This document shows positions 474 through 53,212 of a DNA stretch of 64,000 nt, piece after piece. The stretch is taken from the NCBI GenBank assembly GCA_944323625.1, contig CALUTD010000008.1, positions 1-64,000 on the forward strand, written 5' to 3'. The stretch's first letter is position 1; each line of letters begins with the position of its first letter. Source of the stretch: Candidatus Gastranaerophilales bacterium. Lineage in GTDB: Bacteria; Cyanobacteriota; Vampirovibrionia; Gastranaerophilales; Gastranaerophilaceae. Position numbers and translations under genes: made by a program. The notes beneath the pieces were generated by a model, which worked only from the letters and a program-made list of their open reading frames with translations, made no database searches and was not told the origin of the DNA.

Positions 474-1243
474 TTAAATTTTTATTGGATAATCATCTTT
501 TATTTCCCATCCGTCATTCATTATTAAATATGTACACATATGCACTGATTCAACAGAATCATTATCGCTACAGCTTGTTATTATTTCATTTCTAGTATAT
601 GAAAATAAATTTAAATAAAATCCGGCAATAGGTATATTATTAAATTTTTCACCAAAAGTATCATGAGCCCACTCGGAATCTTTATCATTGATATAAAAAG
701 ACAAATATATCACGCCCTGCTTCGTTTGGTTTTTTTAATCCGTTTATATCAACAAGTACGCTTGTAAATACATACGGGCAGCCATTATCATAAAACATAA
801 GAGTTGTACCATCATTAAGAGAAACAAAATACTCTCCGGCGCCACTATTATTCCAACCTAATTTATTTATATTTTTTTCTGTATAATAAATGTTCTTATA
901 TTCATCTTGATTAACCTCTGAATAATTAATGTATGGTGCCAAACTGCTTTTAAAAAATTCTTCAAAATTATAATTTTCGTTAGGAAAGCCCAAAGTATTA
1001 TTAAGTTCTGAAAGTCGGCATGCATTTTCAATAGAAGAATATACCTTTTTTAATTTGGCTGTAGTTTCTGTCTTTCTATGGTTTGCCATAACAACAGGTA
1101 CGGTTATTGAAGCAATAATACCTATAACAACTAAAGTAATTAATACTTCTGCAAGTGTAAAAGAATGTAATTTGAAAGAGAAAGAGTTTTTTAAATTTAG
1201 CTCTTTTCTACCCCCCCCCGTGGTACTTTAACAATTTTTTCAT
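474..1243 (-). pseudogene. Prepilin-like protein, out of frame at a G9 tract and again at a T tract
   Basis: The start ATG at 1243 has a good AAGGAG site and a TATAAT-like box upstream. Eight codons in, a run of nine Gs (1211-1219 on the minus strand) leads straight into TAG. With eight or eleven Gs the frame joins a typical prepilin N-terminus, FTLAEVLITL, with Glu5, a hydrophobic helix and then MANHRKTETTAKLKK. A second lesion near 685-713 is one extra T in a T5 run: removing it joins GRDIFVF to YINDKDSEW, as in the paralogue at 41.6 kb. The C-terminus is DGWEIKDDYPIKI. The known role of such proteins is as (pseudo)pilin subunits processed at the membrane. Whether it is switched off or decayed cannot be told from one sequence. 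Confidence 0.8.
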
Positions 1244-22929: not shown

Positions 22930-23607
22930 TTGCCGTTTTTTTTTTGGGGGGGGGGAAGTACAGGCTTAAGTGAATGTGAAAAGAAAAAATCCGCCTTAAA
23001 ATCTTTCACACTGGCAGAAGTTTTGATTACCTTAACTATTATAGGTTTTGTTGCTGCAATGACCGTACCGATTCTTACAGCTAACCACAAAAAAATTGAA
23101 TATGCCGCAAAATTGAAAAAGTTTTATAATACTATGAATTCTGCTATAGAACAGGCGGAGATTGATTATGATCTTCCTCGCTCAAAATGGCCAAGTGAAG
23201 GGTATCAGGTTTTTTTTGATAATTATTTGAAAGATTATATTAAATATACCAAAATAGACACAGCAAGTAATTATCCAAATTCCAATATGGATGATTACAA
23301 TGCATTAGATTGGAGTAATTTTTCTGTATATTTAGATGATGGTATGATATTAAACTTAACAGGAGGCTCAAGCGTTCCAATATTTTTAGTAGATGTAAAT
23401 GGAGAAAAAGGTCCAAATAAGGATGGTCACGATATTTTTGATTTTGAATATCAGCCTAATCCACAAGAATATTGTCAAAATTTACAAAAAACAAGAGCTC
23501 AATTAATATCCGATTGTTCGCAAAGCGTTGGTCATGCAGCTAAATGTACTTGTCTAGTTATGTTAGATGGTTGGGAATTCAAAAAAGACTATCCCTTGAA
23601 ACTTTAA
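22930..23607 (+). CDS. Prepilin-like protein behind a T10-G10 tract
   Basis: From TTG 22930 the frame runs to 23607 (225 aa): a leader with PFFFWGGG from T10 (22936-22945) and G10 (22946-22955), then SFTLAEVLITLTIIGFVAAMTVPI, the (pseudo)pilin signature, KLKKFYNTMNSAIEQAE, VDVNGEKGPNKDGHDIFDF and a C-terminal CTCLVMLDGWEFKKDYPLKL. The well-placed ATG at 22879, with GGAGGG, is in the same frame but meets TAA at codon 6, so the real start is unclear. TTG 22930 has no ribosome site. A change in either tract would shift the frame. A strong terminator follows. Confidence 0.75.
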   Translation: MPFFFWGGGSTGLSECEKKKSALKSFTLAEVLITLTIIGFVAAMTVPILTANHKKIEYAAKLKKFYNTMNSAIEQAEIDYDLPRSKWPSEGYQVFFDNYLKDYIKYTKIDTASNYPNSNMDDYNALDWSNFSVYLDDGMILNLTGGSSVPIFLVDVNGEKGPNKDGHDIFDFEYQPNPQEYCQNLQKTRAQLISDCSQSVGHAAKCTCLVMLDGWEFKKDYPLKL

Positions 23608-41582: not shown

Positions 41583-42329
41583 ATGATTAAAAAATCTTTT
41601 ACTATATCTGAAGTTTTAATAACATTGGTTATAATAGGAATAATTGCAGCATTTACTATTCCCGTAATACTACAAAATCACAAGGAAACAGAAACAAGTG
41701 CAAAATAAAAAAAATTCTACGCTACATTATCTAATGCCGTTAAATTAGCAGAATTAGAATGGGGTACTTCATGCTACGAATGGGAAGATCCCGATGATAG
41801 CACCGGAAGTAGTATTTATAGCTCTAATTATTTTGGTTGGGCAGCATATTTTAATGATTATTACGGAAAACATTTAAACTATATAAAAATAGAAAAAATT
41901 ACAGATAATCAATCTTATTATAATTCCACAAAAAATTATGGTAATTGGGATCAACAAACTCCTATCGTATACTTTTCTGATGGAACTATTATGATATTAT
42001 CCGGAAGTAGTGATATATTTTTTGATACTAATGGAGAAAAAGGTCCAAATAAATTTGGCAGAGATATATTTTCATTTTATATTCTTGATTCCGCTCCTTA
42101 TGATTCAAAAAAAAGTTTTCCTAATCCTAATTTACCTCACGTTAATACTTTTTCACCCGGCTTTAACGGATTTTGCAGCAACGGTAAAGTTAATAGAAAT
42201 ACCCTAATAGAAAATTGTAAAAGATTTGGAACAGAGCCCATTAACAGCGAGACAGCATATTGTCAATGTAGTATTCTTTTAGAAATTGATGGTTGGGAAT
42301 TTAAAAATGATTATCCATTTAAACTATAA
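41583..42329 (+). pseudogene. Prepilin-like gene with a single in-frame stop
   Basis: The start ATG 41583 gives MIKKSFTISEVLITLVIIGIIAAFTIPVILQNHKETETSAK, a short leader and the (pseudo)pilin helix. TAA then stands where the paralogues have leucine (SAK-stop-KKFYATLSNAVKLAE versus AAKLKKFYSTMSNAVKLAE). The frame is otherwise open to 42329 and includes DTNGEKGPNKFGRDIFSF and EIDGWEFKNDYPFKL. TTA to TAA is the simplest explanation. There is no G tract here. The XRE gene is divergent. Confidence 0.85.
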
Positions 42330-52437: not shown

Positions 52438-52506
52438 ACTATATATGTTAATACTTGTAAAATCAGGGAATATATGTTAATATAAATAAAAACAGGAGAT
52501 AAGATT

Positions 52507-53212
52507 ATGTATAAATCAATTAAACGCCACGGGGGGGGGTAGAAATAAGCTAAATTTTAAAGCCTATTTTTTTTCTGAAAAACTTTCTTTTACGCTTGCG
52601 GAAGTATTAATTACTCTTGTCGTTATAGGGATTATAGCTGCAATAACCGTGCCTGTAATTATGGCAAATCACAGAAAAACCGAAACAGCAGCTAAATTAA
52701 AAAAGTTTTATTCAACAATGTCTAATGCGGTTAAACTTGCTGAAACTGAACAGGGACTACCTGTTATTGATTGGGATTGGCAAGGCGAAAATCAAATTAA
52801 TAATTTAAATAATATTATGAAAAATATAAATTATACAAAAACTGAAGTTTCTGAAGATCTTCATATTTGCGTTAATGTTTTTTATTTAAATGACGGAAGT
52901 GTAATGTGTACGGATACTATCCCCCAAAGTGTTGAAGGCGACGGTTTTGAAATACATTATGATATAAATGGAGATAAAGCTCCAAATAAATACGGTCGAG
53001 ACCAATTTTTATTTGCAATTATTCCAAATAATAATATAAATGCTGTTGGAGCCTTTCCTTGTAATGATATAGATTTAAATTCAATTAGTTCCAGGGAAGA
53101 AATAAAAAATATTTGTAAAAATAATGAAGGATACAGCCGTGACCAGTGTTGCACAAAGTTAATTCAACTTGACGGGTGGGAAATAAAAGACGATTATCCG
53201 TTAAAGATATGA
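52507..53212 (+). CDS. Phase-variable prepilin-like gene, out of frame at a G9 tract
   Basis: ATG 52507 (AGGAGA upstream) reads MYKSIKRH and then nine Gs (52531-52539) into TAG. Eight or eleven Gs instead give HGGGRNKLNFK and a complete prepilin: SFTLAEVLITLVVIGIIAAI, MANHRKTETAAKLKKFYSTM, DINGDKAPNKYGRDQFLF and a C-terminal LIQLDGWEIKDDYPLKI. No other lesion is visible, so this copy looks intact apart from the tract. The open part from GTG 52649 lacks the pilin signal and is unlikely to be used alone. Its flanks CCAC and TAGAAA match the tract at 1.2 kb exactly. Confidence 0.85.

Follow-up and report, generated by a model that had tools for sequence, protein, structure and literature searches.

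Likely slipped-strand phase variation of a large prepilin gene repertoire in a gut bacterium of the Gastranaerophilales

The window, that is, the whole 64,000-nucleotide stretch of Candidatus Gastranaerophilales DNA that was analysed, contains a prepilin-like gene whose start codon is put out of frame with the pilin by a tract of nine Gs. The question raised by this locus is whether such a gene is broken, wrongly assembled or switched. A preliminary description had read it as an ON/OFF phase-variable gene, and this reading is supported by everything testable on assembled sequence, no reads being available for the exact locus. The support consists of a single protein-giving frame, an intact gene under selection, dozens of paralogous loci with tract lengths of 8-11, the presence of ON and OFF alleles, and contig overlaps in a related species. 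The likely explanation is that a large repertoire of prepilins varies in phase by slipped-strand mispairing, the genes being OFF at nine or ten Gs, the usual lengths, and ON at eight or eleven.

The target locus and its G tract

All elements of the target gene lie on the forward strand. A promoter-like element of the extended -10 type, GGGAATATATGTTAATATAAA (52467-52487), which is also present upstream of other copies of the 5' module, precedes a Shine-Dalgarno GGAG (52495-52498) belonging to the strict GGAG-ATG-tract module. Matches in a promoter consensus scan did not rise above shuffles, that is, above chance in this AT-rich DNA. From the ATG (52507-52509), eight codons ending in CGC CAC lead to the nine Gs (52531-52539), the proposed switch, which are adjoined by a TAG (52540-52542). 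The conserved core, CGCCAC-GGGGGGGGG-TA, occupies 52525-52541, and according to flank tallies it is inverted in those copies that have a C tract on the coding strand. As assembled, the leader ORF comprises 11 codons and a stop (52507-52542), which is the OFF product. The prepilin frame is entered with eight or eleven Gs only, and it then reads MYKSIKRHGGGRNKLNFKAYFFSEKLS-FTLAEVLITL, passing through a post-tract leader (52540-52588) that is open in this frame into the prepilin body (52589-53212), which runs from the motif, with its Glu5, to the stop codon at 53210-53212 and gives 207 aa counted from motif to stop. Thus, what had been claimed for the locus held on inspection: its coordinates and sequence (ATG, ribosome site, codons to CAC, nine Gs, TAG), the 11-residue peptide at nine Gs with only one protein-giving frame, and an otherwise intact prepilin with a complete C-terminus at eight or eleven.

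Regarding the identity of the protein, it scores 17.8 bits against TIGR02532, above the cut-off of 16.3 for this NCBIfam domain, by which the prepilin-motif criterion is met; its score against PF07963 is 15.0, under a cut-off of 21.2 that many paralogs pass. The body has a weak match to DUF6613 (PF20318; E=5.9e-5), just below the family cut-off; among the relatives searched this domain is nearly confined to the genus, and it fits a pilin body domain. Glu at +5 and a hydrophobic stretch after the cleavage site are present (FTLAEVLITLVVIGIIAAI). The criterion of Gly at -1 is not met, the target having Ser and its paralogs G, A, S, T or N, and prepilin-like is therefore the safe name. In a structure model of low confidence (pLDDT 61), five strands come after a long N-terminal helix, and a fold search of this weak model against the PDB gave no significant match. 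As to assembly machinery, two T2SSF/PilC-type (PilC/GspF-type) proteins are found in the genome, the peptidase and ATPases being outside the scope of the search. No relative was found when genome contigs were searched with the target pilin, and viral contigs searched for same-species alleles gave one match only, a GC-rich chance match.

The G9 tract is proposed to act as a contingency switch, operated by strand slippage, in the leader of the prepilin gene. At nine or ten Gs translation would end within a few codons (OFF), and at eight or eleven the ATG would be joined to the prepilin frame (ON). The target has what is required of such a locus, namely an extended homopolymer at the 5' end of the coding sequence that separates ON from OFF frames; switching at 52531-52539, export of the protein and its surface display are inferred, with no reads and with display untested.

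Two further copies are found in the window. One (685-1243, reverse strand), identified by run count, frame analysis and the strict-module scan, has a G9 module at 1211-1219 and a shortened prepilin of 158 aa, and is OFF, with ON lengths of 8/11. The other (22946-23607, forward strand), identified by motif, tract and frame scans, carries a G10 tract 59 nt before the prepilin; a ribosome site and ATG reading into this tract were looked for and not found. The window contains 10 runs of seven Gs vs 0.90 +/- 1.23 in shuffles, these being overlapping matches at three tracts. A tract-less prepilin remnant interrupted by a TAA after 36 residues lies at 41598-41800 (forward strand).

A prepilin family kept intact and mostly OFF

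The genome containing the window (G000) is a draft of 1.99 Mb, placed in the Candidatus Gastranaerophilales by its closest named TyrRS sequences (identities of up to 91%). In it, 121 tracts of eight or more Gs are found vs about 1.2 expected from base composition. It has 98 matches to Pfam N_methyl, and 107 prepilin motifs were located in the stretches around them, 83 of which have a G or C run no more than 330 nt upstream. The lengths of the 115 tracts then collected were 8 (2), 9 (61), 10 (45) and 11 (7). Strict GGAG-ATG-tract modules number 67 with G and 2 with C, the reversed-pattern control giving 0. The core flanking the pilin tracts is conserved in both orientations, and no such conservation is seen around other tracts in the flank tallies.

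A start, a tract and an open path to the motif could be defined in 57 genes, 51 of them OFF and 6 ON, with ON lengths of 8/11 in 44, 9/12 in 8 and 7/10 in 5. The stretch from tract to motif is open in the ON frame in 41 of the 42 long leaders, vs 9.2 expected from shuffles (the other two frames are open in 13/42 and 1/42), and has therefore been kept as coding sequence. Downstream ORFs of at least 190 residues are intact in 56 of the 57 genes, and dN/dS between close paralogs, nearly all of them OFF, is 0.13-0.24. The prepilin genes that are OFF in the assembly are thus intact and under purifying selection, from which it follows that they are used. Among 11 pairs of close paralogs with near-identical flanks, 5 differ in tract length (8/9, 9/10).

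The ON share, 6/57, is below one third (P = 6.7e-5 assuming independent loci, although paralogs are not independent). This OFF excess follows if nine and ten are the usual lengths and the frames are arranged to be OFF there. Both this excess and the scale, the target being one of about 57 such genes beside a second architecture, had escaped the preliminary description. The same translational switch would operate on about 57 prepilin genes of this genome; given the rarity of the ON lengths (8/11), most loci would be OFF in any cell, and each cell should display a small, random and heritable subset of pilins.

In the second architecture, shared by about 23 genes, a distance of 130-233 nt separates the promoter-ATG-core-G module from a downstream prepilin that has an ATG of its own, and most of these intervals contain a hairpin bearing a T-rich tail. 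Such class-2 loci (e.g., L086, L129, L138, L169, L173) combine a leader ORF that lacks a pilin with a covarying hairpin and, after it, a pilin that has a separate start codon. Compensatory changes are seen in 5 of 12 pairs of the hairpin, single copies of which fold better than shuffles (z -2.3 to -2.9). A G+C-based terminator scan, not above shuffles, misses this hairpin, whose stem is AT-rich. Of the loci in two species, 27 were testable, and in every one the 8-G frame runs 40-128 nt beyond the tract toward the hairpin, the probability of a frame staying open this far in shuffles being 0.22, and the 9- and 10-G frames are open in none of the 27, meeting a stop within 29 nt past the tract. 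This layout is that of a Pil1-type leader-peptide attenuator, in which repeat length sets the reach of the ribosome to the hairpin. Here, eight Gs would let ribosomes get to the hairpin, relieving termination before the pilin; attenuation itself is inferred, in the absence of expression data.

G-tracts also occur in the same genome within likely polysaccharide and other genes (L065, G000:C4:3800-10000; L092; L090; L067). Named from their translations, the products include a nucleotide-sugar dehydrogenase-like protein (ON), a DegT-type aminotransferase and an acetyltransferase-like protein (OFF), and a glycosyltransferase-like protein (OFF). From sequence alone, these are inferred to be ordinary contingency loci alongside the pilin set.

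The design recurs in related species. Strict RBS-ATG-tract modules are found in 4 of 41 species of the genus, namely G000, G008 (11 G, 26 C), G019 (5 G) and G055 (2 C), with reversed-pattern controls of zero across the 41 genomes, except two in one genome. In G008 the coding strand usually carries nine Cs within an inverted core (TA-C9-GTGGCG), and these genes are nearly always OFF; 33 of the 34 pilin tracts of this genome are exactly nine, nearly all in the same phase. In G019, 3 genes are ON and 6 OFF, with tract lengths of 8-11.

Length polymorphism with otherwise identical sequence has been found at two G008 loci, of which one is a pilin locus built like the target, the target itself being without reads. 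At the pilin module, the end of contig C68 and the start of C41 match over 103/103 flanking bases and have tracts of 10 and 9; at a non-pilin tract, the end of C43 (L392) and the start of C74 (L393) match over 100/100 flanking bases, with tracts of 10 and 8. Each pair is most simply read as one locus split by length variants in the sample, although it cannot be fully excluded that PCR or sequencing slippage contributed in part to these differences.

Another member of the genus, G007, has many G-tracts in glycan and other genes without a prepilin expansion, and certain others have hardly any tracts. Loss of mismatch repair was considered as a cause of the tracts and rejected: MutS is present in nearly all genus members, tract-rich and tract-poor alike, and its loss therefore does not explain them. 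Large families without the switch also exist, as in G026 and G031 (same order, other families), which have 82 and 32 prepilin matches and just 2 G-tracts each. Runs of 17-32 Gs near contig ends in G019 (L331, L328), some beside Ns, are probably sequencing or assembly artefacts.

Alternative explanations

The alternative that survives best, and which remains possible, is that the core CGCCAC-G9-TA is chiefly a recombination junction at which promoter-leader modules and pilin cassettes are exchanged, slippage being secondary. In its favour, several recent paralog pairs of G000 share 92-100% identity over the first 100 nt downstream from the core, non-coding DNA among it, and have unrelated upstream sequence; in one pair the pattern is reversed. 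In addition, the core is found in both orientations, and pilin bodies and 5' types are partly reassorted. Against it, the recent G008 duplicates (L180/L182) share the promoter too, in two G000 pairs the tract does not mark a break, and no recombinase has been linked to the site; moreover, such exchange does not rule out phase variation and could coexist with it. As a universal junction the tract was rejected, since this fits several G000 pairs and fails for the G008 duplicates. Exchange at the core is a real lead that has not been shown.

Less probable is programmed recoding, in which RNA polymerase or the ribosome would slip by -1 at nine Gs or Cs in some transcripts or passages, giving low expression of every gene without any change in DNA. 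Exactly -1 is needed by 28 of the 30 OFF genes having nine Gs or Cs, and the G008 tracts are nearly all nine and in the same phase. However, tracts of ten, whose phase is the opposite one, precede intact ORFs in 14 genes, six genes are in frame as assembled, and the length polymorphisms at G008 contig ends point to change at the DNA level. The tract also works whether the coding strand carries it as G or as C, an indifference not expected of tRNA-specific slippage; recoding by the ribosome only is disfavoured by these C-tract copies together with the opposite-phase tracts of ten.

It is very unlikely that translation of the pilin begins at a start codon 3' of the tract whatever the tract length, the tract merely tuning expression. 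An in-frame ATG just before the motif does exist in a few copies (e.g., L045), and tract-less paralogs start there, but in the target and most copies the stretch from tract to motif offers no ATG that has a ribosome site, and it is nonetheless kept open as coding.

Finally, decay of the OFF genes into pseudogenes, or an assembly error behind the ninth G, is very unlikely: the assembly is a draft and a few copies are shortened (158, 81 and 71 aa), but 56 of the 57 ORFs are intact, dN/dS is well under 1, the OFF logic is the same in three species and in both orientations, and the same error would be needed at dozens of loci.

Phase variation remains the preferred reading; points against it include the absence of observed variation at the target tract, for which there are no reads, the narrow range of lengths, most marked in G008, the rarity of ON in G000, and the presence of MutS in nearly all genus members. 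A bolder version is possible, in which the core, in both orientations, is at once slippage switch and crossover point; promoter-leader modules would be shuffled with pilin cassettes while the frames silence nearly all of the roughly 80 pilins, giving a combinatorial and near-singular display.

Known systems and biological meaning

Simple-repeat phase variation is best known in small-genome mucosal pathogens. The opa genes of Neisseria, with 9-12 loci (PMC13183285) or about 11 (PMC3745409), carry CTCTT repeats in the leader. As in the prepilin set, paralogous surface proteins at multiple loci each have their own repeat in the 5' coding leader and are switched by frame, and in gonococcal opa, too, fewer in-frame genes than expected by chance have been reported (PMC13183285). 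Unlike opa, whose repeat is a pentamer and whose products are outer-membrane proteins, the set described here has a mononucleotide G/C tract, prepilins, several times more loci, and a host in a Cyanobacteriota gut lineage. The vlhA family of Mycoplasma gallisepticum (PMC6258824) is likewise a large surface-protein family with a repeat switch and conserved flanks at each gene and few genes ON, but it is switched at the promoter by GAA trinucleotide repeats and not by reading frame.

The second architecture matches the Pil1 attenuator of Streptococcus gallolyticus, in which longer translation of the leader disrupts a terminator (PMC3894217): in both, the length of the repeat within a leader peptide governs the distance that the ribosome travels toward a stem-loop before pilus genes, a role that is inferred for the prepilins. 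Pil1 is one pilus locus with GCAGA repeats, whereas in the second architecture the repeat is G9, the genes encode type IV-like prepilins, and about 30 loci are involved. In Neisseria, Campylobacter and Helicobacter, too, poly-G contingency loci place homopolymers in surface-structure genes (PMC5084427, PMC8355987, PMC2823697), and in the genus studied here sugar and glycan genes have G/C homopolymers as well; most tracts, however, are in one prepilin family sharing one 5' module. Thus, opa, vlhA and Pil1 are the precedents, and what is new is the lineage, the family, the scale, and two switch designs with one shared module. To our knowledge, such switching has not been reported for the Gastranaerophilales: the preliminary description knew of no account, and none was found in the literature searched, most subscription papers being outside its scope.

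The phase-variation model is directly testable in existing metagenome reads. If it is correct, a commensal gut relative of cyanobacteria would devote about 80 prepilin genes to phase variation, with two designs and a built-in preference for OFF. The probable consequence is that few pilins would be switched on, at random, the coat changing from cell to cell, which would imply that host immunity, phages or surfaces exert a strong pressure on these bacteria, which are largely uncultured and poorly known.
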